DNA of 64,000 nt from Roseovarius sp. (GTDB taxonomy: Bacteria > Pseudomonadota > Alphaproteobacteria > Rhodobacterales > Rhodobacteraceae). The position numbers were made by a program, and so were the translations under genes. Every line of letters starts with the position of its first letter. Positions within the stretch are counted from its first letter, which is position 1. The notes beneath the pieces were generated by a model that searched no databases, was not told where the DNA came from, and saw nothing but the letters and a program-made list of their open reading frames with translations. The stretch is taken from positions 1-64,000 of the forward strand of contig JACIYT010000007.1 in NCBI GenBank assembly GCA_014359765.1, in the 5' to 3' direction. Below are positions 36,225-54,081 of this stretch, one piece after another.

Positions 36225-37274
36225 ATGACCGCAATGAACATGGCCGCAATGACCCGGCTCGCCGCGGGTGCGGCAATGGTGATGGCGGGCGCGCTGGCGC
36301 CGCAGGGCGCCCTCGCCGAGGTGACGCTCAAGATGGCCGACACCTTCCCGCCCGGCCATTACATCGTGGAGAACGGCACCACCTACTGGATGGAGCGCGT
36401 GACCGAGCTCACGGATGGCGAGGTCCGGTTCCAGTATTTCGGCGCCGGGCAGCTCGGATCGCTGCGCGACATGTTCTCGATGGTGCAGTCGGGCGTGGTC
36501 GATATCGGCTATGTGCCGCCGGCCTACAATGCCGGCAAGATGCCACTGGCAGGCGTGCACACATTGCCCGGCCTCTTCTCCGAGAGCGCGGTCGGAACCC
36601 CGGCCTTCTTCGAGACAGTGACATCGGGTCCGATCCTGGAGACCGATTTCCTCGCCAACGGGATGCGCCCGGTCTGGGGCGTGATGACCTCGACCTACAA
36701 CCTCTTCACCCGCGGCAAGGAAATCGGCGGGCTCGACGACATCAGGGGGCTCAAGCTGAAGACGATCGCCGGCAACATGGCCGAATCGGTCAAGGCGCTC
36801 GGCGGATCGCCGGTCGATATTCCCAGCCCCGAGACCTACCAGGCGATTCGCACCGGCACCGTGGACGGCACGATCTTTCCGACCACGAGCGTCTATTCCT
36901 ACAAGCTCGACGAGGTGATCGACACCGCGATGATGGGGCTCGACGTTTTCGTTTACTGGGCCCCCTATGCCATCCGCGAGGAGGTCTGGCAGGGGCTCGC
37001 CCCCGAGCATCGCGAGGCCATGCAGCAGGCGGCGCAGGAGGCGATGCAGCGCGTCGCCGAGCACACCGACCGCTCGAGCGCGGAACTCGAGGACCGGATG
37101 CGCGAGTCCGGGATCAAGGTGCTGGTGCTCGACGAGGCACAGCGCCAGCAGGTGCGCGAACTCACCGCGCCCGTCTTCGACAACTGGACCGAGAGCATGG
37201 AAGCGCGCGGATTGCCCGGCAAGGAGGTGCTCGCGGCGTTCCGCGCGAGCATCGAAAAGCACCAGAGCCGGTAA
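36225..37274 (+). CDS. dctP: TRAP transporter solute-binding protein, DctP family
   Basis: A periplasmic receptor of 349 residues. The signal peptide ends near ALA at about residue 32 (APQGALA), followed by EVTLKMADTFPPGHYIVENG. Typical DctP elements are GAGQLGSLRDMFSMVQSG and TYQAIRTGTVDGTIFP. The family's usual substrate-binding arginine lies in a G-[LM]-K-[ILMV]-R motif; here the motif reads GLKLKT, with lysine. The start at 36225 has GGGAGG ten bases upstream. It delivers substrate to the DctQM permease encoded next and so defines what the island consumes, most probably an organic acid. Confidence 0.93.
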   Translation: MTAMNMAAMTRLAAGAAMVMAGALAPQGALAEVTLKMADTFPPGHYIVENGTTYWMERVTELTDGEVRFQYFGAGQLGSLRDMFSMVQSGVVDIGYVPPAYNAGKMPLAGVHTLPGLFSESAVGTPAFFETVTSGPILETDFLANGMRPVWGVMTSTYNLFTRGKEIGGLDDIRGLKLKTIAGNMAESVKALGGSPVDIPSPETYQAIRTGTVDGTIFPTTSVYSYKLDEVIDTAMMGLDVFVYWAPYAIREEVWQGLAPEHREAMQQAAQEAMQRVAEHTDRSSAELEDRMRESGIKVLVLDEAQRQQVRELTAPVFDNWTESMEARGLPGKEVLAAFRASIEKHQSR

Positions 37275-37286
37275 GGGGGCAGCGCC

Positions 37287-37871
37287 TTGCGTCTCCATGA
37301 TTCCGACACGCCCGGCGAAGGGTCCTCCGCCGGGGGCGGCCCGGCGCCCGGGGCCGGGATGCGCGGCCTGCCGGGCCGCGTGATGGACCGGCTCGACATC
37401 GCGGCGAACACGCTCTCGCGGGCGGCGATGGTGATCATGCTCGTGCTGATCCTCGTCCAGGTCTTCACCCGCTACGTCCTCAACGACCCGATCGAGGGCG
37501 TGATGGGCGCGACCGAGCTCTACCTGATGCCCATTATCGTGTTCGGCAGCCTCAGCTATCTCGAGATGCAAAACGGTCATGTCCGGGTGGGGATCCTGTT
37601 CGATGCGCTGCCCGGGCGCGTGCGCGCGGGGCTGGATGTCTTCCTGCGGGTGGCGGCGGCGGCGTTCTTCGGGCTGATCTGCTACGGCGCCACGCGCGAG
37701 GCGCTCAAGGCGTGGCAGGCCGGATACCGGACCTCCGGCGACATCGACGCGCCGCTCGTCACCACGCTGGTCATCGCGCCCATCGGCTGCCTGCTGATCG
37801 TGCTGCGCCTCCTCGTCAACGCGGCGGGAGACGTGCAGCGGCTCCGCGGCACCAAGCACCGGACCCTGTGA
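37287..37871 (+). CDS. dctQ: TRAP transporter small permease, DctQ
   Basis: A four-helix membrane protein of up to 194 residues that links DctP to the large permease. The first helix is MVIMLVLILVQVFTRYVL, preceded by a Gly/Pro-rich cytoplasmic stretch; GVMGATELYLMPIIVFG and GCLLIVLRLLVNA follow. I place the start at a TTG (37287) because GTAAGGGGG lies just before it. ATGs at 37359 or 37383 (MDRLDIAANTL) would be closer to the usual family start and remain possible. Confidence 0.86.
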   Translation: MRLHDSDTPGEGSSAGGGPAPGAGMRGLPGRVMDRLDIAANTLSRAAMVIMLVLILVQVFTRYVLNDPIEGVMGATELYLMPIIVFGSLSYLEMQNGHVRVGILFDALPGRVRAGLDVFLRVAAAAFFGLICYGATREALKAWQAGYRTSGDIDAPLVTTLVIAPIGCLLIVLRLLVNAAGDVQRLRGTKHRTL

Positions 37872-37874
37872 CCC

Positions 37875-39164
37875 ATGGAATTTCTTGCACCTGTATCGCT
37901 TCTGCTGGCGGGGCTGCTCGTCGCCGGGATGCCGATCGGCTTTGCCATGGGCATCGCCGGCACCGTCGGACTCTATCTGATCGGCGGGGTCAACCTGGCG
38001 CTCGGGATCCTGTCGGTGGCGCCCTATCGCAACACCGCCTCCTGGCTGCTGACCGCCATTCCGCTGTTCATCCTGATGGCCGAGATCCTGGCGGCCAGCC
38101 GGATTTCGTCGGACATGTTCCGCGCCGCCAATCGCTGGGTGGGGCACCTGCCGGGCGGGCTTGCAGTGGCGACCGTGTTCACCAGCGCCGGGTTCGGCGC
38201 GGTCTCGGGCTCCTCCACAGCCGCCACGGCAACGATGGCGCGCACCGTGGCGCCCGAGGCCGAGAAATACGGCTATGACCGCGGCATGATCGTCGGCACG
38301 GTCGCCGCGGCCGGGACGCTGTCGATCATGATCCCGCCCTCGGTGGTGCTGATGGTCTATGGCATCATCACCGAAACCTCGATCGGCGGGCTGTTCATCG
38401 CCGGCATCCTGCCGGGCCTGATCACGGCGCTCTCCTTTGCCGGCATCACGATGATCTGGGCCTCGCTGGACCGGGGCGCGGCCCCCGCCGCACAGCGCCA
38501 TGGCTGGGGCGCGCGCTTCGCGTCGCTGCGCGATCTGTGGCCGGTGGTCGTTCTGTTCGTGTTCGTTCTGGCGGGGATCTACTCGGGCGCCGTCACCGTC
38601 ACCGAGGCGGCGGCGGTGGGCTGTTTCGGCGCCCTGCTGATCGCCGTGGTCATGCTCCGGCGGATGGGCTGGCGCGACTTCATGGGCGCGCTCGAACGCA
38701 CCACCCGACCCACCGCGATGATCTTCACCATCATCATCGGGGCGCATATCTTCGGCTATTTCGTCACTCTCACCATGGCGCCGCAGGCGCTGGTCTCCTA
38801 TGTCAACGGGCTCGAGATCGGGCCGGGCATGGTGATCCTGATCCTGATCGTGATCTACGTGCTGCTCGGCTGCGTGATGGATCAGCTCGCGATCCTGATC
38901 CTGACCATGCCGATCGTCTTTCCGATGGTCATGGAACTCGGCTATTCGCCGATCTGGTTCGGCATCCTGGTGACCAAGACGGTCGAGATCGGGCTGATCA
39001 CCCCGCCAATCGGGATGAACGTCTTCGTGGCGAGCTCGATCACCGGCGTGCCGCTCAAGCGGGTCTTCGTGGGCGTGCTGCCCTTCGTGCTGGCGGAATT
39101 CGCGGTGCTGGCCCTGATCGCCTTCTTTCCCGGGATCGTGACCGTGTTCTCGGGCGCATACTGA
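37875..39164 (+). CDS. dctM: TRAP transporter large permease, DctM
   Basis: The transport subunit, 429 residues with about 12 membrane segments; TRAP systems use the sodium gradient rather than ATP. Family signatures: FGAVSGSSTAATATMARTV near residue 115, GTLSIMIPPSVVLMVYG near 155, and LITPPIGMNVFVASSITGVP near 375. It starts four bases after dctQ. Confidence 0.95.
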   Translation: MEFLAPVSLLLAGLLVAGMPIGFAMGIAGTVGLYLIGGVNLALGILSVAPYRNTASWLLTAIPLFILMAEILAASRISSDMFRAANRWVGHLPGGLAVATVFTSAGFGAVSGSSTAATATMARTVAPEAEKYGYDRGMIVGTVAAAGTLSIMIPPSVVLMVYGIITETSIGGLFIAGILPGLITALSFAGITMIWASLDRGAAPAAQRHGWGARFASLRDLWPVVVLFVFVLAGIYSGAVTVTEAAAVGCFGALLIAVVMLRRMGWRDFMGALERTTRPTAMIFTIIIGAHIFGYFVTLTMAPQALVSYVNGLEIGPGMVILILIVIYVLLGCVMDQLAILILTMPIVFPMVMELGYSPIWFGILVTKTVEIGLITPPIGMNVFVASSITGVPLKRVFVGVLPFVLAEFAVLALIAFFPGIVTVFSGAY

Positions 39165-39185
39165 ATCACCGAAAGGAGCAGGGAC

Positions 39186-39935
39186 TTGGAACTCGGACTG
39201 AAGGACAAGGTGGCGATCGTCACCGGATCGGGGCGCGGGATCGGGGCGGTGACGGCACGCGCGCTGGCCGAGGAAGGCGCGAAGGTCGTGATCACCGACA
39301 TCGACCCGCAGACCACCGAGGCCACCTGTGCCGCGCTCGAGGCCGATGGTCATGATGCGATCGGGGTGGTCTGCGATGTCACCGACATGGCCCTGGTCGA
39401 GACGATGGTCGCGCGCGCGGTGGCGGCCTTCGGCGGTGTCCACATCCTCGTGAACAACGCCGGCTTCCCGCGGGACAACTACATCACCCGGATGCCCGAA
39501 CAGGACTGGGATTCGGTCGTCGGGGTGATCCTGAAGGGCGCCTACAACTGTTCGCGCGCCGTCGTGCCGCATTTCATGGCGCAGAACTGGGGCCGCGTGA
39601 TCAACATCTCCTCGCGCGCCTATCTCGGCAATCCGGGGCAGACCAACTATGCGGCGGCCAAGGCCGGAATCCTCGGATTCACCCGGGCGCTGGGGATGGA
39701 ACAGGGCCGCTTCAACGTCACCGTGAACGCCATCGCCCCCGGCTTCATCGCCACCGAAATGATCGAGTCGCTGCCCAATTACGACCGGATCAGGACGCGC
39801 GCGTTGGCGATGAACACCGTGCCGCGCCTGGGCACCGAACGCGACATCGCCAACGGCGTGCTGTTCCTGGCCTCGGAGGCGGCGAGCTACATCTCGGGCG
39901 AGACGCTCCACATCACCGGGGGGCGTTATGGCTGA
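39186..39935 (+). CDS. Short-chain dehydrogenase/reductase, FabG-like
   Basis: An NAD(P)-dependent oxidoreductase of 249 residues. Cofactor motif TGSGRGIG near residue 13, NNAG near 90, catalytic serine in INISSRAY and the Tyr/Lys pair in TNYAAAKAG near 155. Asp at the end of strand 2 (ITDID) favours NAD. Start is a TTG at 39186 with AAAGGAG eight bases upstream. In this operon it would oxidise a hydroxyacyl-CoA or hydroxy acid intermediate. It overlaps the following gene by eight bases. Confidence 0.88.
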   Translation: MELGLKDKVAIVTGSGRGIGAVTARALAEEGAKVVITDIDPQTTEATCAALEADGHDAIGVVCDVTDMALVETMVARAVAAFGGVHILVNNAGFPRDNYITRMPEQDWDSVVGVILKGAYNCSRAVVPHFMAQNWGRVINISSRAYLGNPGQTNYAAAKAGILGFTRALGMEQGRFNVTVNAIAPGFIATEMIESLPNYDRIRTRALAMNTVPRLGTERDIANGVLFLASEAASYISGETLHITGGRYG

Positions 39936-41100
39936 GGCGATCCCGCCAGGCGACGGGATGCAGGGGGCGGAGGCCCGGATGCTGCGCGAGAGCATCCGCG
40001 GCTTTCTCGCGCGCGAGATGACCGAGGCGCGCATCGCCGAATGCGAGACCGCCGGCACGCTGCCCTGGGAGATGATCGGCGCGCTGCGCCAGTTCGGCTA
40101 CCTGGGCGGGCTCCTGCCCGAGACGGCGGGCGGTTTCGGGCTCGACTATCGCACCTGGGCGATGATGATGGAGGAGGCGGGCTATCGCTGGCTGTCGCTG
40201 CGGGTGCTGCTGAACACCGTCAACATCGTCGCCGGCCTGCTGCACCACCTCGGCGATGCGCGCCAGAAGGACAGGTGGCTCAAACCCGTGATGGCAGGCG
40301 AAATGCCCGTCTGGGTCGGCATCACCGAGCCCGACCACGGCTCGGATGTCGCCTCGGTGCGGACCCGCGCCGAGGACATGGGCGACCACTGGCGCATCAA
40401 CGGCAGCAAGCTCTGGACGACCAACGGCGTGCATGGCCGCGTCGGGATCCTGGTGGCGCGGACCTTCACCCGGGGCTGCGAGGGGGATCTGAGCCTGTTC
40501 ATCGTGGACCCCGGGGAAACCCGTTTCGAGGCCGCGCGCGTCGGCACCATGTTCATCAAGGCCACGGCGACCTCGCAGCTTGCCTTTCACGACGCGCGCG
40601 TGCCGAAGGAAAACCTTCTGGGGCCGGCGGGAAAGGGGCTCAGGGCGATCCTCACCGGGCTGAACTACGGGCGGCTCAATGTCGCGGCGGGGGCGGTCGG
40701 CGCGGCGCAGCGGGCGCTCGATCTGTCCACCGACTACGTGCGCACGCGCAAGCAGTTCGGCCAGGTGATCGGGCGATTCCAGCTGGTGCAGAAGCTGATC
40801 GTGGACATGACCGTGCGCACCGAGGCGGCCCGCGCGCTGACCGATCGCGCGGCGCAGGCGCTCGACGCGGGCCTGCCCGCGCGCAAGGAATGCTCGATCG
40901 CCAAGCTCTATGCCAGCGAGGCCGCGCATGAGGTGGCCTCGATGGCGCTGCAGGCGCATGGCGGGCTTGGCTATTCGACCGATTACCCGATCGAGCGGCT
41001 GTTTCGCGACACGCGCGGCGGGCTGATCCCCGAGGGCACGTCGGAAATCCAGACCCTGATCATCGGGCGCGAGATCCTCGGGATCTCGGCCTTCACATGA
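39928..41100 (+). CDS. Acyl-CoA dehydrogenase (first of three in the island)
   Basis: An FAD enzyme of 390 residues that introduces an alpha-beta double bond into an acyl-CoA. Signature ITEPDHGSDVASVRTRA near residue 132; the catalytic base is the glutamate of PEGTSEIQ near residue 370, and the helix-G position that is Glu in isovaleryl-CoA dehydrogenase is Gly here (NYGR). MCAD-type base placement is therefore expected. Closest in look to the crotonobetainyl/branched-chain group. Electron acceptor is presumably ETF. Confidence 0.9.
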   Translation: MAEAIPPGDGMQGAEARMLRESIRGFLAREMTEARIAECETAGTLPWEMIGALRQFGYLGGLLPETAGGFGLDYRTWAMMMEEAGYRWLSLRVLLNTVNIVAGLLHHLGDARQKDRWLKPVMAGEMPVWVGITEPDHGSDVASVRTRAEDMGDHWRINGSKLWTTNGVHGRVGILVARTFTRGCEGDLSLFIVDPGETRFEAARVGTMFIKATATSQLAFHDARVPKENLLGPAGKGLRAILTGLNYGRLNVAAGAVGAAQRALDLSTDYVRTRKQFGQVIGRFQLVQKLIVDMTVRTEAARALTDRAAQALDAGLPARKECSIAKLYASEAAHEVASMALQAHGGLGYSTDYPIERLFRDTRGGLIPEGTSEIQTLIIGREILGISAFT

Positions 41101-41110
41101 GGCGGCGCTC

Positions 41111-42631
41111 ATGGCGATGACCTTCCTGCAGGCGCTGCGGCTGAATGCGCGGCGCTTCCCGACACGGCCGGCGGTGATCTTCGAGGGCCGGGCCGAGAGC
41201 TACCCCGCCTTTCTCGACCGGGTGGAGCGGATGATGACCGTCCTCGCGCGGCGCGGCATCGGCCCCGGCGACAAGGTGGCGGTGATCTCGGAAAACCATC
41301 CCGATTTCCTCGCCGCCTATGTGGCGGTGACCGGCCTCGGCGCGATCCCGGCGCCGATCAACTACCGCATCTCCCCCACAGTCATGGCCGAGGTGGTGGC
41401 CCGCGCCGACAGCAAGGCGCTGCTGCTGGGGGAGGTGGCGGCCGAACATGTCGGGCTGTTTCGCGGCGTCGTGGCCGACATCATCGCCCTCGGCGAGGGG
41501 GCGGCAGGCGCGCCGGGGCTGGCGCGGCTGTCCGAACTGCTGGCGGCAACGCCGCCCGATCCGCCGCACGGCCAGGACGGCACGACCATCATGCTGCACA
41601 CATCGGGCACGACCGGCACCCCCAAGGGCCTGCTGCGGAGCCTGTTCGGCATGGAGCATCGCGCCATCGAACAGCGGTTCCGGCCCGATGACCGGGCGCT
41701 TGCGGCGCTGCCGATCTGCCTGTCGGCGGGCTGCACCTACACGCTCCTGCCGCTCTACCTGGGGGCCAGCATCTACCTGCTGCGCCGCTTCGACGCCGCC
41801 CTCGCCCTGCGGCTGATCGAGACGGAGAGGCTGACCGCCACCATGCTGCTGCCGGCCATGCTCCAGCGGATGGTCGAGACCGACGGATTTGCCAGCGCGG
41901 ACCTTTCGTCGCTGCGCACGCTCCAGTCGGGGGGCGGCGAGATGTATCCCGACCTCAAGCGCACCATGCTCGACAAGGTCGGCGACGCGCTCATGGTCTA
42001 TGCCGCCTCCAGCGAGGCGGGGCCCTATGCCAATCTCACCGCTGCCGAGCTGCGCCGCAACCTGACGGGCAATTGCGTGGGCCGGCCGTTCTTCGGGGTC
42101 GATCTGAAGATCCTCGACGATGACGGCAAAGAGGTGCCCCGGGGCGAGGTGGGCGAGATCTGCACCCGCAGCGAAAGCCGCTATGACGACTATTACAAGG
42201 ACCCGGAGATGACCGCGCAAACGCGGCGTGGCGACTACCTGACCGTGGGCGATCTGGGCCGGATCGACGCCGAGGGGCTGCTCTGGTTCACCGGCCGCAA
42301 GCGCGACATCATCAAGAGCGGCGGCATCAATGTCCACGCGCCCGAGATCGAGGAGGCGCTGGCCAGCCACCCGGCGATCGCCGAGGCGCATTGCATCGGC
42401 CTGCCCGATCCGCGCTGGACCGAGGCAATCTGCGCGGTGATCGTGCCCGCCCCCGGCGCCCGGCTGACCGTGGCCGAGGTGATGGCCCATGCCGAGGCGA
42501 GGCTCGAGCGATACAAGCGCCCCCGGCGCGTCGTGTTCATGCCGGCGGTGCCGCGCAACCTGACCGGCCGCGTGCTCAAGACCGAACTCAGGGAGGCGGT
42601 CCTTGCCCTGCCAGAGGAGGAGACCCGATGA
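41111..42631 (+). CDS. AMP-dependent acyl-CoA ligase-like protein with altered A10 motif
   Basis: An ANL-superfamily protein of 506 residues that would activate a carboxylic acid to its CoA thioester through an acyl-AMP. The P-loop is TIMLHTSGTTGTPKG near residue 160; the A8 hinge TGRKRDIIKSGGINVHAPEIE is near 400. The A10 motif, normally [ST]-G-K-x with the catalytic lysine, reads LTGRVLKTEL: arginine replaces the lysine. This could weaken or abolish adenylation while leaving thioesterification, unless the downstream lysine substitutes. It overlaps the MaoC gene by four bases. Confidence 0.88.
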   Translation: MAMTFLQALRLNARRFPTRPAVIFEGRAESYPAFLDRVERMMTVLARRGIGPGDKVAVISENHPDFLAAYVAVTGLGAIPAPINYRISPTVMAEVVARADSKALLLGEVAAEHVGLFRGVVADIIALGEGAAGAPGLARLSELLAATPPDPPHGQDGTTIMLHTSGTTGTPKGLLRSLFGMEHRAIEQRFRPDDRALAALPICLSAGCTYTLLPLYLGASIYLLRRFDAALALRLIETERLTATMLLPAMLQRMVETDGFASADLSSLRTLQSGGGEMYPDLKRTMLDKVGDALMVYAASSEAGPYANLTAAELRRNLTGNCVGRPFFGVDLKILDDDGKEVPRGEVGEICTRSESRYDDYYKDPEMTAQTRRGDYLTVGDLGRIDAEGLLWFTGRKRDIIKSGGINVHAPEIEEALASHPAIAEAHCIGLPDPRWTEAICAVIVPAPGARLTVAEVMAHAEARLERYKRPRRVVFMPAVPRNLTGRVLKTELREAVLALPEEETR

Positions 42632-43125
42632 TGACCCGACCCGATCTTTCGGCCCTGCAGGGCCGGCAGCTCTACTGGGAGGACCTGGATGAAGGCGCGT
42701 GCTTCGACAGCCCCACCCGCACCATCACCGAGGCCGACGTGACGAATTTCGCCTGCCTGTCGGGCGATTTCAACCGGCTGCATGTCGATGCGGCCTTTGC
42801 CGCCGGTTCGGCCTTCGGGCAGCGCATCGCGCACGGGCTTCTGGTGGTGTCGGTGATGTCGGGGCTGAGCACGCGGATGCTGCTCAATACCTTTCTCGAG
42901 CCCTCCTTGCTGGGGCTTCTCGACATGCAGTGCCGGTTTCCCCGGCCCACCTTCATCGGCGACACGATCGGCCTGCGCGTCACCCTCGCCGAAAAGCGCG
43001 TCACATCAAAGCCCGGGCGCGGCATCCTGACCTTCCGGCGCGAGGCGGTCAACCAGCGCGACGAGATCGTGGTGGAAGGGGTCTGGAAACTGCTCGTGCG
43101 GCGGCGGCCGGGGCAGGATGGCTGA
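42628..43125 (+). CDS. MaoC-like (R)-specific enoyl-CoA hydratase
   Basis: A hot-dog-fold protein of 165 residues. The hydratase motif with catalytic Asp and His is SGDFNRLHVDAAFA, followed by FGQRIAHGLLVVSVMSGL. It would add water to an enoyl-CoA, giving an R-hydroxyacyl-CoA, or dehydrate such a compound, as mesaconyl-CoA hydratase does. Start at 42628 overlaps the ligase stop (ATGA). Confidence 0.88.
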   Translation: MMTRPDLSALQGRQLYWEDLDEGACFDSPTRTITEADVTNFACLSGDFNRLHVDAAFAAGSAFGQRIAHGLLVVSVMSGLSTRMLLNTFLEPSLLGLLDMQCRFPRPTFIGDTIGLRVTLAEKRVTSKPGRGILTFRREAVNQRDEIVVEGVWKLLVRRRPGQDG

Positions 43126-46059: not shown

Positions 46060-47177
46060 CCACTGCCGCAGCCCCGCTTGCCGGCCTTCGCGTGCTCGAC
46101 CTGACCGAGCTGCTGCCCGGGCCCTTCGCCACCCAGCAACTGGTCGAGATGGGCGCCGAGGTCATCAAGGTCGAGCGCCCCGGCGGCGATGCCGCGCGGG
46201 TCCTGTTCCCCGGTCTCTTCGCGGCGGTGAACCGCGGCAAGAAGAGCATCACGCTGAACCTCAAGGACGCGGCCGACCGCGCCTCCCTCGTCCGCCTCGC
46301 GCAAAAGGCCGATGTGGTGATCGAGGGCTACCGGCCGGGCGTCGCCGCGCGGCTCGGCATCGACCACGCGACGCTGTCGCGGCTCAACCCCGGCCTCGTC
46401 TATTGTTCGCTCAGCGGCTACGGCCAGACCGGGCCGGCCCGCGACTGGCCCGGGCACGACCTGAATTATGCCGCGATGGCGGGCGCGGCGGGGATCTCGG
46501 GGGCGCCCGACGGCCCGCCCGAATACACCACCGGGGTGCCGATCGGCGATCTGTCGGCGGCGATGTATGCGATCGTCACGATCCTCGCGGCGCTGCGCGC
46601 GCGCGACGCCACCGGGCAGGGCCAGTATCTCGACGTGGCGATCACCGACGCGCTGACGAGCTGGGTCGGCCCGCGCCTGGGCATGTGGGACGCCGCCCGG
46701 CGCGACGGGCGCACGATCACCAAGGCCGACATCCTGCGCCGCGCCGCCTATGGCATCTTCGAGACCGCCGATGGCAGATACATCACCATCGGCGCGATCG
46801 AGACGCATTTCTTTCGCAGCCTGATCCGGGCCACCGGCATGACCGGGTTCGACGATCCGGCGCTCGATGATTTCGCCGCCCGCACGGCGCATACGGACGC
46901 GATCCGCGACGCCCTCGCGCCGCTGATCGCCGCCCGGCCCTATGACCATTGGGCGCGCGTCTTCGAGGCCGAGGACGTGCCCTTTGCCCCGGTCAACGCG
47001 CTGGAGGATCTGGCCCGCGATGCGCATCTGAAGGCCCGCGCCATGGTGCACGAGATCGGCGGGGCGCAGGTGATCGCCTTTCCCGTGCCGATGGCCGGCA
47101 TCGGCGCGCCGGCCAGCGACGTGCCCGCCCCGGGCGCCCACCAGGCCGAGATCCTCGGCCCGGACGCGGAGGCGTGA
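46056..47177 (+). CDS. Family III CoA-transferase (CaiB/BaiF), first copy
   Basis: A protein of 373 residues that moves CoA from one acyl-CoA to a free acid through an aspartyl-CoA intermediate. The catalytic Asp is in GVPIGDLSAAMYA near residue 165; the N-terminus LAGLRVLDLTELLPGPFATQ and KVERPGGD are typical. Its place directly after the citryl-CoA-lyase-like gene suggests that it charges the substrate that enzyme cleaves. Confidence 0.9.
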   Translation: MTTAAAPLAGLRVLDLTELLPGPFATQQLVEMGAEVIKVERPGGDAARVLFPGLFAAVNRGKKSITLNLKDAADRASLVRLAQKADVVIEGYRPGVAARLGIDHATLSRLNPGLVYCSLSGYGQTGPARDWPGHDLNYAAMAGAAGISGAPDGPPEYTTGVPIGDLSAAMYAIVTILAALRARDATGQGQYLDVAITDALTSWVGPRLGMWDAARRDGRTITKADILRRAAYGIFETADGRYITIGAIETHFFRSLIRATGMTGFDDPALDDFAARTAHTDAIRDALAPLIAARPYDHWARVFEAEDVPFAPVNALEDLARDAHLKARAMVHEIGGAQVIAFPVPMAGIGAPASDVPAPGAHQAEILGPDAEA

Positions 47178-47183
47178 GGGGCG

Positions 47184-48338
47184 ATGCAGTTCACGCTGGA
47201 AGACTGGCAGGAAACCGCGCGGCGCAGCTTTCGCCGCTATCTCGATGCCGAGGTGGCGCCGCTGGTCGAGGATCATGAGGATGCCCATCGCCCACCGCCG
47301 CCCGAAATCCTGCGCAAGATGGCGGCGTTCGGCCTGCTGGGCGGCCTCCTGCCCGAGGAAGAGGGCGGCGCGGGGCTCGACTATCTGACCTATTGCACCC
47401 TTTTGTGCGAGCTCTCGCAGGTCTGGCCGTCGCTGCGCAGCATCGTCAGCACCTCCAATCTGGTGCTGATGATCCTCGCCCGGCACGGCACCCCCGAACA
47501 GCGGGAAAGGTGGCTCGGCGATCTCGTCTCGGGCCGCAAGACCGCCTTCTTCGCGCTGACCGAACCGAATGTCGGCTCGGATGCCAGCAATGTCGAGACC
47601 CGCGCCGGGCGCGACGGCGCGGGGTGGCGGATGCGTGGGCGCAAGCTCTATATTTCCAACGGGCCGGGGGCCGATCTCGGCGTGGTCTTCGCCCGCACCA
47701 CAGGCGGGGCGCGGGCCGGGGTCTCGGCCTTCGTGGTCGAGGCGGGAGCGCCCGGGTTCTCGGCCCGCGAGGTGCGCAGCATGGGTATGAATTCCTGCCC
47801 GCTGGGCGAATTGCTGTTCGAGGACGTGGCGCTTGCGGGTGATCACCTGATCGGCACCGAGGGCGAGGCCTTTGCCATCGCCAAGCATTACCTGAACGTG
47901 GGCCGCTGTTTCGTCTCCTTCACCTGCCTCGGCCTCTCGATCGCCGCCTATGAGGCGGCACTGCGCCATGCCGGCATTCGCGAGCAGTTCGGCCGCAGGA
48001 TCGGCGGTTTCCAGCTGGTGCAGCAGATGATCGCCGACATGATGACCCGCGTGGAGACCTCGCGGCTGCTGGCCTGCCGGGCGGCTGACGCGCTGGACCG
48101 GGGGGCGCCCGACCGCGCCCGCGCCTGCTCGATGGCCAAGCGCCACAATTCCGAAGCGGCGCTGCGGGTCTGCGAAACGGCTCTGCAGGTGCATGGCGGG
48201 GCGGGCTATACGCGCGATTTCCCGGTCGAGCGGTATTATCGCGACGTGCGCCACCTCACCATCGCCGAGGGCACCAACGAGATTCAGGCGCTGCTTCTGG
48301 CGCAGGGCGCGCTCGGCATATCGGCGCTGCGCGGCTGA
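47184..48338 (+). CDS. Acyl-CoA dehydrogenase (second)
   Basis: An FAD enzyme of 384 residues, last gene of the plus-strand catabolic operon. Signature ALTEPNVGSDASNVETRAGR near residue 128; the catalytic glutamate is in AEGTNEIQ near residue 365, and the helix-G position is Gly (NVGR), as in MCAD-type enzymes. N-terminal region resembles glutaryl/crotonobetainyl-CoA dehydrogenase relatives. It lies six bases after the CoA-transferase and ends 46 bases before the convergent second CoA-transferase gene. Confidence 0.9.
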   Translation: MQFTLEDWQETARRSFRRYLDAEVAPLVEDHEDAHRPPPPEILRKMAAFGLLGGLLPEEEGGAGLDYLTYCTLLCELSQVWPSLRSIVSTSNLVLMILARHGTPEQRERWLGDLVSGRKTAFFALTEPNVGSDASNVETRAGRDGAGWRMRGRKLYISNGPGADLGVVFARTTGGARAGVSAFVVEAGAPGFSAREVRSMGMNSCPLGELLFEDVALAGDHLIGTEGEAFAIAKHYLNVGRCFVSFTCLGLSIAAYEAALRHAGIREQFGRRIGGFQLVQQMIADMMTRVETSRLLACRAADALDRGAPDRARACSMAKRHNSEAALRVCETALQVHGGAGYTRDFPVERYYRDVRHLTIAEGTNEIQALLLAQGALGISALRG

Positions 48339-48384
48339 GCGGGGCCAGCCCGCGCGCCGCACAGCGCAGGGGGCAGGAGGCCGA

Positions 48385-49569
48385 TCAGCGCGATCGCTCC
48401 GCCGCGCCATCCGCGCCGAGCACCGCCTCGGGCGGCGTCGTGCCGAGCGCGGGCGCGGCGCTCTTGACCTGGGGCCGTTCCCCGTCAAAGCGCAACGGCA
48501 GCCCGACCACCTGTATCTTGCCATCGGGGGTGCGCTGCATGATCCCGAGCGCCTCGGTCTGCGGATGGGCCAGCACTTCGGAGACGACATGGACCGGCGC
48601 ACAGGGCACGCCCACGGCCTCCAGCGCCGCGACCCAATCTGCCGCGGGACGGGTCTTGACCCGCTCCTCGATCAGCGCATTGAGCACCACCCGGTTCGCC
48701 ACCCGGTCGGCATTGTCGCGAAAGCGCGGATCGTCGGCCCATTCGGGCGCGCCCAGAACCTCGCAGAGCCGCCGGAAGAGATTGTTGTTGCCGACCGCGA
48801 TGACAACATGGCGATCCGCCGCCTCGAAGGCACGATAGGGCGCGAGCATCGGGGTTTCGGAGCCGCTCCGCCCCGGATCGCGGCCCGAGGCGAGGCCATT
48901 GGCGATCGGCACCGTCATCCACGACAGCGCCGTCTCGAAGAGCGAGCTGTCCACGGTGCAGCCGATGCCCGTCTCGCGCCGCCGCAGGAGCGCCGACAGT
49001 ATGCCGATCACGCACCACATGCCGGTGCCCTGATCGATGATCGACGGCCCGACCCGCACCGGCGGGCGCCCTTCCTCGCCGGTGACGCTCATGATGCCCG
49101 AAAAGGCCTGCACCAGCGGATCGTAGCCGGTGGTGGCCTTCATCGGCCCGACCTCGCCGAAGGCGCCGAGATTGCAGTAGATCAGCGCCGGGTTCTGCGC
49201 CCTCAGGCTGGCCGCGTCGATGCCGTAGCGGGCGACGAGACCGGGCCGCATGTTCTGGATCACGACATCGGCGCCAAGCATCAGCCGGCGCAGCTGCGCC
49301 AGCTCGCCGGGATCCTTGATGTCGAGCGCGACCGACATCTTGTTGCGGTTCAGCGCCTGAAAGGCTGCGGCCACCCCTTCCTGAAACGGCGGCCCCCAGC
49401 CGCGCGCATCATCGCCGGCCTTCGGGTTCTCGATCTTGATCACCCGCGCGCCGAGATCGCCCAGAACCTGGGTGGCAAAGGGCGCGGCAACGCTGTGGCC
49501 GAGTTCGATCACCGTGACCCCGGCAAGCGGGGCGGTGACGGGGCCATTCGGTTCGGCCTGGCTGGACAT
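48385..49569 (-). CDS. Family III CoA-transferase (CaiB/BaiF), second copy
   Basis: A protein of 394 residues, last gene of the minus-strand unit. Catalytic Asp in GPSIIDQGTGMWC near residue 175; opening VTVIELGHSVAAPFATQVLG and KIENPKAGDDARGWGPPF are family features. It differs clearly from the first copy, so the two should act on different acids or in different directions. The ATG at 49569 follows AAAGGAG; a GTG two codons upstream is less likely. Preceded by a 209-bp gap that may hold its own regulation. Confidence 0.88.
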   Translation of the reverse strand: MSSQAEPNGPVTAPLAGVTVIELGHSVAAPFATQVLGDLGARVIKIENPKAGDDARGWGPPFQEGVAAAFQALNRNKMSVALDIKDPGELAQLRRLMLGADVVIQNMRPGLVARYGIDAASLRAQNPALIYCNLGAFGEVGPMKATTGYDPLVQAFSGIMSVTGEEGRPPVRVGPSIIDQGTGMWCVIGILSALLRRRETGIGCTVDSSLFETALSWMTVPIANGLASGRDPGRSGSETPMLAPYRAFEAADRHVVIAVGNNNLFRRLCEVLGAPEWADDPRFRDNADRVANRVVLNALIEERVKTRPAADWVAALEAVGVPCAPVHVVSEVLAHPQTEALGIMQRTPDGKIQVVGLPLRFDGERPQVKSAAPALGTTPPEAVLGADGAAERSR

Positions 49570-49613
49570 GGGCACTCTCCTTTGATGGGGGTGATGCCGG
49601 CCGGATCATCGAC

Positions 49614-49644
49614 CGGCGGGAAACAGCGCCAGCGGCGGGAAACA
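49614..49644. repeat. Tandem 12-bp repeat upstream of the second CoA-transferase
   Basis: CGGCGGGAAACA occurs at 49614-49625 and again at 49633-49644, 19 bp apart, in the 209-bp gap between the acyl-CoA dehydrogenase and CoA-transferase genes. Direct repeats near two helical turns apart can be activator sites. Nothing else recognisable lies in the gap. Confidence 0.35.
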
Positions 49645-49778
49645 CCACACGAGGACCAGCGCAACACGCAGCACGCGCAGCGACGGCGCAGGGGTGCGTC
49701 TCTCTTCCTTCGATCCGTGGCGGGCGGGCCGCCGGGATCCGCGCCGTCATTTCGGTTGCCTCGCGTTCCTTCGCCCGC

Positions 49779-50969
49779 TCAGTAGGAGCGGGGCATCCCC
49801 AGCACATGCTCTCCCAGAAAGGCCAGGATCAGATTGGTGGAGATGGGCGCCACCTGATAGATCCGGGTCTCGCGCCATTTGCGCTCGACGTTGTATTCGG
49901 TGGCAAAGCCAAACCCGCCATGGGCCTGAAGGCAGGCCTCGGCGGCGTGCCAGGAGGCTTCGGAGGTGAGCAGCTTGGCCATGTTCGCCTCTTCGCCGCA
50001 GGGCAGGCCCGCGTCGAACATCGCGCAGGCCTTGCGCAGCACCATCTCCGCGGCCTTCATCTCGGCATAGGCGCGCGCGATGGGGAACTGCACGCCCTGG
50101 TTGGCCCCGATCGGCCGGCCGAAGACCACCCGCTCGCTGACATAGCGGGTGGCGGTGTCGATGAACCAGCGCGCATCGCCCAGACATTCCGACGCGACCA
50201 GCGCGCGTTCGGCATTCATGCTGTCGAGGATGAAGCGAAAGCCCTTGCCCTCCTCGCCGATCAGGCTCGACGCGGGGATACGCAGATTGTCGAAATAGAT
50301 CTCGGTGGTGTTGTGGTTGACCATCGCCTTGAGCGGCCGGATGTCGAGCCCCCTGCCCCTGGCCTCGCGCATGTCCACGAGGAACACCGAAAGCCCGTCG
50401 GTCCGGCGCGCCACCTGGTCGGCCGGCGTGGTCCGGGCCAGCAGCAGCATCAGGTCCGAATAGAGCGCGCGCGAGGTCCAGACCTTCTGGCCGTTGATCA
50501 CGTAGCTGTCGCCGTCGCGCACCGCGCGGGTCTTGAGCTGCGTGGTGTCCGAGCCGGTGGTCGGCTCGGTCACGCCAAAGGCCTGGAGCCGCAGCTCTCC
50601 GGAGGCGATTCGCGGCAGATATTCGGCCTTCTGCGCGGCGCTGCCATGCCGGAGCACCGTGCCCATCGTGTACATCTGGGCATGGCAGGCGGCCGCGTTT
50701 CCGCCGCTGGCGTGAATCTCCTCGAGGATCACCGAGGCGGCGCGCAACGGCAGCCCCGCGCCGCCGTATTCCTCGGGGATCAGCACCGCGAGAAAGCCGC
50801 TCTCGGTCAGGGCCTTCACGAATTCGTCGGGATATTTCCCGTTCTCCTCGAGCCGCTGCCAGTACTGGCCGTCGAAGGGCCTGCACAGGCGGCGCACGGC
50901 TTCGCGGATATCGGGATAATCCTCGCCGAGGCTGACGGTGACATCGGAAACGGGGGGAACGGTGGTCAT
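49779..50969 (-). CDS. Acyl-CoA dehydrogenase (third), isovaleryl-type base placement
   Basis: An FAD enzyme of 396 residues. It has the usual GVTEPTTGSDTTQLKTRA near residue 132 and RVVFGRPIGANQGVQF. At the usual position of the catalytic glutamate it reads YQVAPISTNLI instead of xEGTxEI. A glutamate appears instead in helix G (SMNAERALV), in register with the catalytic Glu of isovaleryl-CoA dehydrogenase (LDLERLVL). A branched or 3-substituted acyl-CoA is therefore a reasonable substrate class. It starts 18 bases after MmgE/PrpD. Confidence 0.88.
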   Translation of the reverse strand: MTTVPPVSDVTVSLGEDYPDIREAVRRLCRPFDGQYWQRLEENGKYPDEFVKALTESGFLAVLIPEEYGGAGLPLRAASVILEEIHASGGNAAACHAQMYTMGTVLRHGSAAQKAEYLPRIASGELRLQAFGVTEPTTGSDTTQLKTRAVRDGDSYVINGQKVWTSRALYSDLMLLLARTTPADQVARRTDGLSVFLVDMREARGRGLDIRPLKAMVNHNTTEIYFDNLRIPASSLIGEEGKGFRFILDSMNAERALVASECLGDARWFIDTATRYVSERVVFGRPIGANQGVQFPIARAYAEMKAAEMVLRKACAMFDAGLPCGEEANMAKLLTSEASWHAAEACLQAHGGFGFATEYNVERKWRETRIYQVAPISTNLILAFLGEHVLGMPRSY

Positions 50970-50987
50970 GCAGGGATCCTCGGGGGT

Positions 50988-52316
50988 TCAGGCCGCGGTC
51001 AGGCGGCGCAGGTTGGCGCGGAAGGTGTCGGTGCTCAGCGGCCCGCCGCCGCGCCGCGTGTAGAGATCGAGACAATCGGCGAGCTTTGCCGCGATGCGCG
51101 TGGCATCCGCCGGCGCGTCGGGCGAGCCGGGGAAATGGTGCACCTCGGCCTCCGCCAGGCTGGCGTTGCCCTGCCGGAGCGCCAGCCGCACGGCGCCATG
51201 CGCGATCCCCACCGGCATGTCGCCCTCCAGCCGGTCCTCGGTGATGGTGATGCGCCCCATCAGGGCCCGGATCGCCGGGCGGCCGACAGTGTCATCCTCG
51301 AAATCGCGCAGCCCCACCCGCCCCTGCACCAGCGCGGCGGCGAGAGTATAGCCGGCGCAGAACTTCGCCTCGAGGCCGGTGCGCGGATCGGTGACATGCA
51401 GCGGCCGCATCGTGCCGAAGGGCACGTCGAGCGTGATCGCCACATCGGCCGGCGGCGCGGCGCCGAGCTGCGCATGAACCCGCAGCCCCGCCTCGATGAT
51501 CCGGTGGGTCATGTAGCAACAGGGAAACAGCTTGCGCGAGAGCGAGCGCGCATCGGGCAGGATCGCCACCGCAGCGGGATCCTCGCCCGGCTCCGGCCCA
51601 CCGTGAAGATCGAAGAAGCCACGCGGCCCGAAGATGTCATCCGCGCCGCTCACCCCGGCCTCGGCCATCAGCGCCGCGCGCACCGCCGCCGCCGCCGCGA
51701 ACCCGGCCTGAACCGGCTTGGCCATGGTGCCGAAATTGCGCTGCAACCCGCCCGATTGCGCCGCGGCCAGCGCCAGCGCGCGCCGCGTCGCCGCCGCGTC
51801 CAGGCCCAGCAGATGCGCCGCCGCTGCCGCCCCCGCGACGGGGCCGATCGTCGAAGTCGCGTGCCAGCCCTTGTCATAATGCGAAAAGCCCAGGACCCGG
51901 CCCAGCGCGATATTGACCCCGACCCCCACGGCAAAGGCGGGCAGCGCGCGCGGCGCCAGGGCAGGATCGCGCCCCAGCAGCACCAGAAGCGCTGGCACGA
52001 TCACCACGCTGGGATGCGTGACGCTGACCAGATGCACGTCATCGTAATCGAGCGCATGACCGGCCGTCGCATGAAGCAGCGCCGCGCTCTCGGCGTTCAC
52101 CGCCGCGCCGCCATCGAGCAGCGCCGCGCCGGGAGCGGGCGCCCCGGCACCGCGATAGAGCGGCAGAAGCGCCTGCGTCACCGGCTCGTGCCAGCCGGCA
52201 TGGGCAACGGCCATCGTGTCCTCGAAGGCCAGCAGCGCCGCGCCCTCATCGGCCGCCGACAGCGCGACAGGCCCGGTCACAACGTCACAGATTTGCCGGA
52301 TGAATGCCTCCGCCAT
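50988..52316 (-). CDS. MmgE/PrpD family protein
   Basis: A protein of 442 residues in the family of 2-methylcitrate dehydratase, cis-aconitate decarboxylase and iminodisuccinate epimerase. Family features include the GHALDYDDVH motif near residue 87, THPSVVIVPALL next to it, and KLFPCCYMTHRIIEAGL near residue 262. Substrates in this family are di- and tricarboxylates, which fits a TRAP-imported acid. First gene of the minus-strand unit, with a promoter facing away from the GntR gene and an operator arm 25 bp upstream of its start. Confidence 0.87.
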   Translation of the reverse strand: MAEAFIRQICDVVTGPVALSAADEGAALLAFEDTMAVAHAGWHEPVTQALLPLYRGAGAPAPGAALLDGGAAVNAESAALLHATAGHALDYDDVHLVSVTHPSVVIVPALLVLLGRDPALAPRALPAFAVGVGVNIALGRVLGFSHYDKGWHATSTIGPVAGAAAAAHLLGLDAAATRRALALAAAQSGGLQRNFGTMAKPVQAGFAAAAAVRAALMAEAGVSGADDIFGPRGFFDLHGGPEPGEDPAAVAILPDARSLSRKLFPCCYMTHRIIEAGLRVHAQLGAAPPADVAITLDVPFGTMRPLHVTDPRTGLEAKFCAGYTLAAALVQGRVGLRDFEDDTVGRPAIRALMGRITITEDRLEGDMPVGIAHGAVRLALRQGNASLAEAEVHHFPGSPDAPADATRIAAKLADCLDLYTRRGGGPLSTDTFRANLRRLTAA

Positions 52317-52340
52317 CGGCCCTTCCTCTCCCGCCAGCCC

Positions 52341-52352
52341 AATTGTCCGGAC
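52341..52352. promoter_or_regulatory. GntR operator, left arm (AATTGTCCGGAC)
   Basis: It is the exact inverted complement of 52399-52410. It contains most of the palindrome TTGTCCGGACAA, which fits the GntR-family consensus (GT...AC). It lies directly downstream of the minus-strand -10 box, a position suited to repression of MmgE/PrpD. Confidence 0.65.
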
Positions 52353-52382
52353 TGAATACGTGGGGGATTGTCACACTGTCAA
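52353..52382 (-). promoter_or_regulatory. Predicted sigma-70 promoter for the MmgE/PrpD unit
   Basis: On the minus strand, TTGACA (52377-52382) and TATTCA (52353-52358) are separated by 18 bp. The -35 box overlaps that of the divergent gntR promoter. The start point would fall inside the left operator arm. Confidence 0.55.
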
Positions 52383-52397
52383 GCGCCGCCCTATACA
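52368..52397 (+). promoter_or_regulatory. Predicted sigma-70 promoter for gntR
   Basis: TTGTCA (52368-52373) and TATACA (52392-52397) are separated by 18 bp; the right operator arm begins one base after the -10 box, so the regulator would repress itself. Confidence 0.55.
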
Positions 52398-52398
52398 G

Positions 52399-52410
52399 GT
52401 CCGGACAATT
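52399..52410. promoter_or_regulatory. GntR operator, right arm (GTCCGGACAATT)
   Basis: Perfect inverted copy of 52341-52352; the centres of the two GTCCGGAC cores are 54 bp apart, about five helical turns, which would allow looping between the two bound dimers. It sits immediately after the gntR -10 box. Confidence 0.65.
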
Positions 52411-52454
52411 TCTGGCCAGTTCCCCGCCAGATCGCGCCGAAACCGGAATCGAAG

Positions 52455-53231
52455 ATGACCCGCCGCGCTCCGCCGCTTTATCTGGAATTGCGCAAGACGC
52501 TGGCTGAGGAGCTTGCCGCGGGGAAATATCCCGTGGGCAGCCGCTTTCCCACCGAGCTCGACCTGTGCCGGCGTTTCGGCCTCGCGCGTCACACGGTGCG
52601 CGAGGCGCTTCGCGCGTTGCAGGACGCCGGCCTGCTGGCGCGTCAGGCACGCACCGGCACTGTCGTGCTGGCGACACATCCGCCGGAACCCTATGCCAAC
52701 CGCATGAATTCGCTCGAGGAACTGTGGCAATACGCCAAGGAAACGCGGTTCGAACAGCGCCACGAGGGCGTCGTGATCCTGCGCCAGCCCCTCGCCGCGA
52801 CGCTGGGCCGGTCGGTCGGCGAGCGGTGGCTGCGGATGGCCGGCTATCGCCACAACATCGCCGATGGGACACCGCTGTGCTGGTCGGAAATCTTCGTGGC
52901 GGAGCCTTTTCTGGGGATCCGCGACAAGGTCGATCACGCGCGCATTCCCGTCTATGCGTTCTTGTCCGAACAATATGGCCTGTCCATCGACCTGGTCGAG
53001 CGCCAGATCCGGGCCGTCGCCATGCCCGACGATATCGCGCAGGTGCTCGGCAGCCGCGCCGGAACGCCCGCGCTGCTTGAGCGGCGCAGCTACTTCGGAA
53101 CCAGGGCCGGCGCGGGCGCAGCGCAGGCCGAGGCAACGCCCTTCGAGATCTCCCTGTCCATCCATCCCGGCGACCGCTTTGCACATACCACGCGGCTCCT
53201 GCGCGAGAAGACGCCGGTCTCCGATCTCTGA
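52455..53231 (+). CDS. GntR-family regulator, HutC/UTRA type
   Basis: A regulator of 258 residues. The N-terminal ~70 residues form the winged helix-turn-helix (GKYPVGSRFPTELDLCRRFG, HTVREALRALQDAGLL); the rest is a UTRA ligand domain (WLRMAGYRHNIADGTPLCWSEIFV). The start at 52455 (MTRRAPPLYLEL) is the family start; the longer in-frame region covers the operator and -10 box. It likely represses itself and the divergent MmgE/PrpD unit until a pathway acid or CoA ester binds. Confidence 0.9.
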   Translation: MTRRAPPLYLELRKTLAEELAAGKYPVGSRFPTELDLCRRFGLARHTVREALRALQDAGLLARQARTGTVVLATHPPEPYANRMNSLEELWQYAKETRFEQRHEGVVILRQPLAATLGRSVGERWLRMAGYRHNIADGTPLCWSEIFVAEPFLGIRDKVDHARIPVYAFLSEQYGLSIDLVERQIRAVAMPDDIAQVLGSRAGTPALLERRSYFGTRAGAGAAQAEATPFEISLSIHPGDRFAHTTRLLREKTPVSDL

Positions 53232-53277
53232 TCCGCACCCCGCACGCCCTGACACCACGACGAGAAGGAACGCCCCG

Positions 53278-54081
53278 ATGTCCAGCCTTTCCCGCGCCCA
53301 TGATACCCTGACGCTGAGCCGCGAGGAGGATCATGTCCTGATCGTCACGCTCAACCGGCCCGATGCCGCCAACGCGATGAATACCCGCATGGGCGAGGAA
53401 ATCCTGGCGCTGTTCCAGTCGCTTCTGCTCGATTCCGAGGGGGTGCGCGCCGTGGTGCTGACCGGAAGCGGCGCACGCGCCTTCTGTGCCGGCGGCGACC
53501 TGCGCGAGCGCGACGGCATGACCGACGAGGCCTGGCAGCGCCAGCATGTCATCTTCGAACAGGCCTTCTACAGGCTGATGGACTGTCCCATCCCGGTCAT
53601 CGCGGCGGTGAACGGCGCCGCCTTTGGCGGGGGATGCGAGATGGCGCTGGCCTGTGACTTCATCCTCGCCGCGACGACCGCCCGCTTTGCCCTGACCGAG
53701 ACGCGCCTCGGCATCATTCCCGGCGCCGGCGGCACGCAGAACCTGCCCCGCGCGGTCGGCGCCCGGCGGGCGCGCCAGCTGATCTATTCCGCCCAGCCCT
53801 TCAGCGCCGCGCAGGCCGCCGACTGGGGCATGGTGAACGAGATCCTCGAACCCGAGGCGCTGCTGCCCCGGGCGCGCGAACTGGCGCGCCTGATCGCCGC
53901 GAATGCGCCGATCGCGGTGCGCCAGGCCAAGCGGGCAATCGGCATCGGCACCGAGGCCGACCTCGGGACCGGCCTCGCCGTCGAGATCGAGGCATATCAT
54001 CGCTGCGTGCCGACCGAGGACCGGCGCGAGGGGGTGCGCGCCTTCAACGAAAAGCGCGCGCCGGTGTTTCGCGGCCGCTGA
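53278..54081 (+). CDS. Enoyl-CoA hydratase/isomerase (crotonase family)
   Basis: A protein of 267 residues. Oxyanion-hole segments are AFCAGGDLRERDGM and NGAAFGGGCEMALACD. Both glutamates needed for hydration are present, one in GGGCEM near residue 122 and one in TETRLGIIPGAGGTQ near 142. It would hydrate an enoyl-CoA made by one of the dehydrogenases, giving the S-hydroxyacyl-CoA, in contrast to the MaoC enzyme. It follows gntR by 46 bases, with SD GAAGGAA, and faces the MoaD-like gene tail to tail. Confidence 0.9.
   Translation: MSSLSRAHDTLTLSREEDHVLIVTLNRPDAANAMNTRMGEEILALFQSLLLDSEGVRAVVLTGSGARAFCAGGDLRERDGMTDEAWQRQHVIFEQAFYRLMDCPIPVIAAVNGAAFGGGCEMALACDFILAATTARFALTETRLGIIPGAGGTQNLPRAVGARRARQLIYSAQPFSAAQAADWGMVNEILEPEALLPRARELARLIAANAPIAVRQAKRAIGIGTEADLGTGLAVEIEAYHRCVPTEDRREGVRAFNEKRAPVFRGR

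Follow-up and report, generated by a model that had tools for sequence, protein, structure and literature searches.

Do the closely packed catabolic genes at positions 36225-54081 of a 64,000-nucleotide stretch of Roseovarius sp. DNA (contig JACIYT010000007.1, positions 1 to 64,000; the window) encode one degradative route? An earlier note, made from the sequence alone, saw here a single 18-kb island with a local GntR regulator, in which an organic acid is imported, charged with coenzyme A (CoA), dehydrogenated, hydrated and split by a citryl-CoA-lyase-like enzyme. We find that the region is two adjoining, separately inherited gene sets, termed modules A and B, and not one island. In the reading that we favour, to which we assign a probability of about 0.5, the two modules abut and work independently; module A would end at a retro-aldol cleavage by CCL, a citrate-synthase-fold protein without the catalytic Asp, and module B at a step of the 3-hydroxy-3-methylglutaryl-CoA (HMG-CoA) lyase type. 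Pfam and NCBIfam profile searches located every enzyme family named in the note where it had been placed, confirming the tripartite ATP-independent periplasmic (TRAP) transporter, three acyl-CoA dehydrogenases (ACADs), two types of CoA synthetase, R- and S-type hydratases, a short-chain dehydrogenase/reductase (SDR), an MmgE/PrpD protein and a GntR regulator.

36225..37274, plus strand: DctP, TRAP solute-binding protein, module A (Pfam PF03480)
37287..37871, plus strand: DctQ, small TRAP permease, module A (PF04290)
37875..39164, plus strand: DctM, large TRAP permease, module A (PF06808)
39186..39935, plus strand: FabG-like SDR, module A core (PF13561; NCBIfam FabG models, mostly below cut-off)
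39928..41100, plus strand: ACAD1, acyl-CoA dehydrogenase with the EGT-type Glu, module A core (PF00441/PF02771/PF02770)
41111..42631, plus strand: AMP-forming acyl-CoA ligase, module A (PF00501/PF13193)
42628..43125, plus strand: MaoC-type (R-type) enoyl-CoA hydratase, module A core (PF01575; nearest solved chain 1q6w)
43118..45241, plus strand: nucleoside diphosphate (NDP)-forming acyl-CoA synthetase, module A, overlapping CCL by 4 bp (PF13549, PF13607, PF13380)
45238..46059, plus strand: CCL, predicted Asp-less citrate-synthase-fold lyase, module A core (NF004868; PF00285; match to 6hxp; residue columns)
46056..47177, plus strand: CaiB1, CaiB-fold protein with an alpha-methylacyl-CoA racemase triad, module A (alignment to the racemase MCR)
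47184..48338, plus strand: ACAD2, acyl-CoA dehydrogenase, module A, dispensable (Pfam; below threshold in some loci)
48385..49575, minus strand: CaiB2, dicarboxylate CoA-transferase-like, module B (PF02515; PDB 4ed9, 9br6)
49779..50969, minus strand: ACAD3, acyl-CoA dehydrogenase, module B (Pfam)
50988..52316, minus strand: MmgE/PrpD protein (PrpD), module B (PF03972/PF19305; PDB 2hp3, 7bra)
52343..52408, unstranded: operator-like pair, two copies resembling TTGTCCGGACAA with 2 mismatches each, module B
52452..53231, plus strand: GntR/UTRA regulator, module B (PF00392, PF07702)
53278..54081, plus strand: ECH, crotonase-type (S-type) enoyl-CoA hydratase, module B (PF00378; best NCBIfam model PRK07657, 284 bits, cut-off 363)

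The 11 plus-strand genes of 36225-48338 are spaced by -8 to +21 bp and therefore look like one operon. Module B (48385-54081) is built differently: GntR/UTRA and ECH, encoded on the plus strand, diverge across a 135-bp gap from CaiB2, ACAD3 and PrpD, which are on the minus strand. To follow the two sets through other genomes, we compared 30 CCL loci, 24 taken from a homologue search of genome stretches and six from plasmids; these are not independent, nine being near-identical copies, and three are cut short upstream of CCL. Scored at set thresholds, all nine module A markers occur in 12 of the 30, and the four core genes (SDR, ACAD1, MaoC and CCL) stand together in 23, in Rhodobacterales and betaproteobacteria. 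Among the loci without the full core, L062, L064 and L074 are contig ends, L075 is without ACAD1, L142 has no SDR match, and L083 and L145 share little. At the same thresholds, none of the 30 carries CaiB2, ACAD3, PrpD, GntR or ECH. L142, on plasmid p6 of Sagittula sp. MA-2, has a shortened module A that adjoins an AtuA-type acyclic terpene cluster. Carriers of module A include Roseovarius indicus DSM 26383 and Sulfitobacter alexandrii, and Pontibrevibacter nitratireducens carries module B.

The genus tells the same story. Among 84 genus genomes, three (G000, G015, G016) encode the module A NDP ligase (E <= 1e-200), and two (G000, G034) encode ACAD3 at no less than 80% identity; G034 carries module B and, genome-wide, is without the module A ligase. 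PrpD is found at 54% identity or more in seven genus genomes, and for four of them (G016, G006, G441, G423) the matches lying closest to PrpD on the DNA are other acyl-CoA dehydrogenases, not module B genes. The earlier note had proposed co-occurrence across genomes as the check on its island. The genes of module A do co-occur strongly, but A and B were not together in the other loci and genomes that we compared, an outcome that the note had named as counting against it.

Gene content also varies within module A. The NDP ligase and ACAD2 are absent at our thresholds from L061, L063, L072 and L073 (Salipiger, Pseudooceanicola, Extensimonas), and no close AMP ligase was matched in the betaproteobacterial loci that have the NDP ligase (L076, L079, L082). 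Because either type can be absent, the AMP- and NDP-forming ligases look like alternatives; with ACAD2 dispensable as well, one activation and one dehydrogenation can suffice.

Regulation follows the same boundary. Operator-like copies lie at 52343 and 52397 in the PrpD/GntR gap, and similar pairs occur in three other clusters (L213, L203, L204); the gap of L201 holds no operator-like sequence at up to 3 mismatches. Matches no better than 5 to 6 mismatches were seen ahead of DctP, where A meets B, and between CaiB2 and ACAD3. The pair was first spotted by eye and afterwards tested by motif matching; a shuffle control (0/5000) permuted only the single bases of the gap and, being run post hoc, does not amount to an independent test. 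No inverted repeat emerged from a search limited to 40 bases. The module distribution, together with operator-like sites in B's promoter gap and not before A, leads us to reject the single island. Each module, taken separately, has genes that suit the proposed order of import, CoA charging, dehydrogenation, hydration and C-C cleavage; as a single route it is not supported.

Central to the route proposed for module A is CCL. It scores 330.9 bits against NCBIfam NF004868, 'citryl-CoA lyase', above the curated cut-off of 193, a name that denotes an annotation and not an activity. By sequence it is closest to the Hydrogenobacter thermophilus citryl-CoA lyase 6hxp (3.3e-27), which is also the best PDB fold match (E 2.7e-12, template modelling score 0.72) of its predicted structure (mean predicted local distance difference test score, pLDDT, 82.8); PF00285 and the model agree on the C-terminal fold of citrate synthase. 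We aligned 114 distinct sequences, among them that of the window. The two catalytic His columns, which we take to be those of pig H274 and H320, are kept in 114/114 and 113/114 sequences, and two Arg columns, presumably carboxylate-binding, in 114/114 each. In the column that we equate with pig D375, Asp occurs once, in L012, the longest branch of the tree; elsewhere it is replaced by Thr (73), Ala (18, including Ala198 of the window), Asn (9), Val (7), Ser (4) or Gln (2). The Asp is retained in 6hxp and in 6qcl, an ATP-citrate lyase chain from Chlorobium.

As the Asp is absent from 113/114 sequences while the His and Arg columns persist, CCL is probably not a citryl-CoA lyase; the two invariant Arg columns make a 2-oxo-acid product possible. 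Of the citryl-CoA-lyase-like enzyme in the earlier note, the fold and the family match thus stand, the catalytic Asp is missing, and true citryl-CoA cleavage is unlikely. A genuine citryl-CoA lyase closing a tricarballylate or citrate-like route would account for the NF004868 score, the 6hxp match and both oxo-acid-site Arg residues, and the NDP-forming ligase beside CCL recalls what we take to be the split citryl-CoA synthetase/lyase arrangement. It would leave the replaced Asp unexplained, however, and offers no role for an SDR or for the racemase triad described below; we regard it as very improbable.

What CCL may do instead is suggested by its neighbours. The window protein falls in a 24-row clade (SH-aLRT 98, in a quick tree without bootstrap and with long-branch warnings). 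A second CCL, termed CCL2, lies at G000:C12:131001-151000 (L025), in a cluster with an AMP ligase, carboxyltransferase, biotin carboxylase, HMG-CoA lyase and SDR that resembles leucine or acyclic-terpene degradation; clusters of this type occur in many Rhodobacterales loci, some on plasmids. SDR, ACAD and hydratase genes lie within 4 kb on the same strand in 15 of 25 Rhodobacteral CCL2 loci, and also accompany CCL on a Rhodococcus plasmid; in the window's own clade the figure is 4/16, the SDR often being more than 4 kb away. Around 61 CCL loci, searched over 4 kb of the same strand, no thiolase-like match was found; as the search used two references only and returned none in 54 ACAD3 control loci either, this carries little weight. 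In two Methylobacterium loci (L111, L115), CCL adjoins ACAD3 (66%) and ECH (63%) with no HMG-CoA lyase match; in L111 these genes are preceded by two family-I CoA-transferase genes and an ABC transporter. CCL there fills the slot of HMG-CoA lyase, which supports its assignment as a carbon-bond lyase of 3-hydroxyacyl-CoA. An oxo product is hinted at by the gene that follows CCL in Reyranella, which is glyoxylate-reductase-like (331.7 bits, cut-off 455), and by the zinc or iron alcohol dehydrogenases found downstream of CCL in Achromobacter and in Diaphorobacter.

A different chemistry would suit many of the same neighbours. In a hydrolytic, retro-Claisen beta-oxidation resembling the BadH/BadI degradation of cyclohexanecarboxylate, ACAD1, MaoC and SDR would yield a 3-oxoacyl-CoA, which may be cyclic or branched and which CCL would hydrolyse in place of a thiolase. 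A FabG-like SDR would fit the R-alcohol made by a MaoC hydratase. The SDR accompanies the other three core genes in 23/30 loci, Asp loss suits a changed reaction, and the step sequence of ligase, dehydrogenase, hydratase, BadH and BadI is identical in PMC4547698. Against it, to our knowledge no citrate-synthase-fold enzyme performs retro-Claisen hydrolysis, and L111 and L115 have a hydratase and ACAD3 but, over 4 kb of the same strand, no match to a FabG-like SDR; we consider this chemistry unlikely, though the most credible of the alternatives.

The remaining module A proteins refine the route. CaiB1 was one of two CoA-transferases in the earlier note; two family-III CoA-transferase-fold proteins are indeed present, but in CaiB1 H134, D165 and E249 align with the His of GHDxNY, the Asp and the Glu of GAIE in the racemase MCR (1x74), residues that we take to be the catalytic triad of alpha-methylacyl-CoA racemase. 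The triad is kept in 15/15 distinct sequences at 43% identity or more; overall, CaiB1 scores equally against racemases and CoA-transferases (173-178 bits). A carnitine or betaine route with CaiA/B/C/D analogues, the earlier note's main alternative, shares the ACAD, CaiB-fold, AMP ligase and crotonase superfamilies with this locus. It can hardly be right: besides the racemase triad of CaiB1, the CaiA- and CaiB-type NCBIfam models fall far below cut-off (L-carnitine CoA-transferase, 82 and 103 bits against 413; crotonobetainyl-CoA dehydrogenase, 153 to 176 bits against 540). In DctP, a Lys (GLKLK) replaces the Arg (GLKIR) of three compared TRAP binding proteins (4p56, L074, L203) and occurs in all 18 full-length module A rows, some of them identical or from the same genome twice. 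The DctP structure model (pLDDT 37.7) is too poor for inferring the TRAP substrate.

Returning to the retro-aldol reading, we propose that the TRAP transporter of module A imports an organic acid, which the AMP- or the NDP-forming ligase would charge with CoA. CaiB1, judged by its racemase-type residues, may set an alpha-branched centre; ACAD1 would then dehydrogenate the acyl-CoA and MaoC hydrate it to a 3-hydroxyacyl-CoA. The Asp-less CCL would break the C2-C3 bond by retro-aldol cleavage, so that a short acyl-CoA is released together with an oxo compound that probably bears a carboxylate. The SDR may act in this last part of the route, on the alcohol or the carbonyl.

For module B, the putative route starts from CaiB2, whose best NCBIfam model, succinate--glutarate CoA-transferase, is reached at 315 bits against a cut-off of 750, so that it indicates a likeness of function only. 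CaiB2 would charge a glutarate-type dicarboxylate with CoA, ACAD3 would dehydrogenate it and ECH hydrate the product. ACAD3 has the Glu254-type base and is without the Glu376-type in 78/78 distinct relatives at 57% identity or more, as, we presume, in isovaleryl-CoA dehydrogenase. An HMG-CoA-lyase-type enzyme, absent locally and with two homologues elsewhere in the genome, would make the cleavage. The MmgE/PrpD protein may epimerise or dehydrate the acid: its nearest solved relatives are iminodisuccinate epimerase and IRG1/cis-aconitate decarboxylase (2hp3, 7bra), and as a 2-methylcitrate dehydratase it falls below the NCBIfam cut-offs (25 against 575 and 20 against 458 bits). GntR would control module B only.

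Relatives of module B were sought in 72 ACAD3-centred loci, mostly the better ACAD3 matches in listed order plus the hand-picked G034 and G300:C1, several of them cut by contig ends. In ten of them an HMG-CoA lyase, but no CCL, lies within 4.5 kb, each time along with an ECH of at least 48% identity; a single locus has both lyases, and 61 have neither, 23 of these with a MaoC-N hydratase. Two clusters, on a Pontibrevibacter plasmid (12 kb seen on each side) and in G034, combine ECH, GntR, PrpD, ACAD3 and a CoA-transferase 49-83% identical to those of the window with a TRAP transporter and HMG-CoA lyase of their own. A triple of ACAD3, CaiB (about 38%) and MaoC-N hydratase is common in alphaproteobacteria (for example L231, L241, L268); no CitE-type lyase, and no lyase of any kind, lies among the neighbours scanned in four such loci.

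The nearest relatives of module B raise the question of whether the window's copy lost its TRAP transporter and HMG-CoA lyase and now uses those functions of module A, namely its TRAP and CCL, in one joint route. The absence of both genes is what such a route would predict, and the Methylobacterium loci pair CCL with ACAD3 and ECH. But no other locus or genus genome that we examined combines A with B, the operator-like pair is confined to B's gap, two HMG-CoA lyase homologues are encoded elsewhere in the genome, and the G281 and G361 clusters (both near a contig end or stretch edge) also have no HMG-CoA lyase match within 4.5 kb. We judge the joint route improbable.

Several points nonetheless weigh against two independent modules ending as proposed. 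We infer every reaction and substrate of both, whereas the gene sets, their separation, the residue patterns and the operator-like pair come directly from computation. The SDR, present in 25/30 CCL loci, is as compatible with a 3-oxoacyl-CoA intermediate as with a retro-aldol step. Outside the two main CCL groups, just 1 of 20 loci has all three of SDR, ACAD and hydratase, and in 7 no neighbour was matched; this argues against a single uniform pathway. Module B in the window is without the HMG-CoA lyase and TRAP of its relatives, and A may lend both. Operator-like matches at up to 3 mismatches number 13 in the whole window, among them one with 1 mismatch inside the GntR coding region (52962-52973) and one with 3 at 43282, inside the module A NDP ligase gene; a shorter motif is not rare either (5 matches against a shuffle mean of 2.97). 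Finally, we take D1026 of human ATP-citrate lyase (ACLY) to be the equivalent of the Asp column of CCL. According to PMC10115795, ACLY D1026A formed no acetyl-CoA over time, so that loss of the Asp in CCL could mean weak or no lyase activity; the authors of that paper, however, regard the domain as allosteric, not catalytic.

Module A has moved recently. The 12.3-kb block found in Salipiger pentaromativorans recurs at 99.68 to 100% identity; counting Salipiger, nine records from nine genera have it (L066-L071, L081, L140, L141). Two of the nine are conjugative plasmids by PLSDB typing; seven are draft contigs, in which cross-contamination is possible, but the two complete plasmids show the same block. 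Such identity indicates very recent spread and, with conjugative plasmids in two records, suggests that the acid handled by module A is probably a resource under current selection. The window's copy, about 82% identical in DNA to the plasmid copies over the 7.2 kb compared, belongs to an older branch and is probably chromosomal, since the same contig of this 2.65-Mb genome carries nuo genes. The following neighbours lie outside both modules.

33033-35768: NuoA-D, flanking
54091-54336: ThiS-like gene, accompanying XdhABC
54336-57918: XdhABC, flanking three-gene set resembling xanthine dehydrogenase/4-hydroxybenzoyl-CoA reductase

XdhABC was considered as part of the island and rejected: XdhA (54336-56582), the large subunit, was matched in 18 of 19 genus genomes searched (20/31 in all) and is therefore genus background. 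Further along, the glycosyltransferase at 58219-58899 reaches 193.7 bits against TIGR04283, an arsenosugar biosynthesis family (NCBIfam cut-off 182).

The protein families of the locus are known; their combination and the Asp-less lyase subfamily are without a description that we could find, our literature search having returned none for either of these or for the substrates of either module, and PMC13386836 and PMC9025767 gave no relevant match for acyl-CoA and catabolic terms. Relatives of CCL are encoded in at least 489 genome stretches, and in a listing of 50 plasmid records out of 111, most rows that carry an annotation name them citryl-CoA lyase, which may suggest citrate or CO2-fixation metabolism. 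Showing that the subfamily is Asp-less and often lies beside acyl-CoA degradation genes would correct this naming and point to a new, testable reaction. With somewhat less confidence than in the favoured reading, we suggest that the Asp-less 'citryl-CoA lyases' form a widespread and unrecognised class with the citrate-synthase fold, acting as carbon-bond lyases or hydrolases of acyl-CoA and replacing thiolase or HMG-CoA lyase in the degradation of branched or alicyclic acids, with module A a complete plasmid-spread route built on one of them. (1-Hydroxycyclohexan-1-yl)acetyl-CoA lyase and 3-hydroxy-3-isohexenylglutaryl-CoA lyase (EC 4.1.3.35, 4.1.3.26) are orphan activities, for which these proteins would then be gene candidates.

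Compared with known systems, CCL resembles the citryl-CoA lyase 6hxp and the corresponding module of ATP-citrate lyase in its fold, two His and two Arg residues, and differs from them in the replaced Asp and in the operons, where neighbours were read, that often place its relatives with acyl-CoA dehydrogenase, hydratase or SDR genes. CaiB1 aligns with MCR at the triad, although its overall score is no better than to CoA-transferases. The clusters of the Pontibrevibacter plasmid and G034 share five gene types with module B, their own TRAP and HMG-CoA lyase being theirs only. The aldolase of bile acid side-chain degradation is thiolase-like. As described in PMC11321319 and PMC12502768, the bile acid set (Shy/Sal, ChsE/ChsH/Ltp2) comprises dehydrogenase, MaoC hydratase and retro-aldol lyase, the order proposed for module A; its aldolase works with a DUF35 domain, where module A has a citrate-synthase fold and an SDR. 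A precedent is the CitE-like lyase Rv2498c, first annotated as a citryl-CoA lyase, which, according to PMC6689899, cleaves citramalyl-CoA and (R)-HMG-CoA and not citryl-CoA; its fold and organism are different, and its activity has been demonstrated, whereas that of CCL is predicted.

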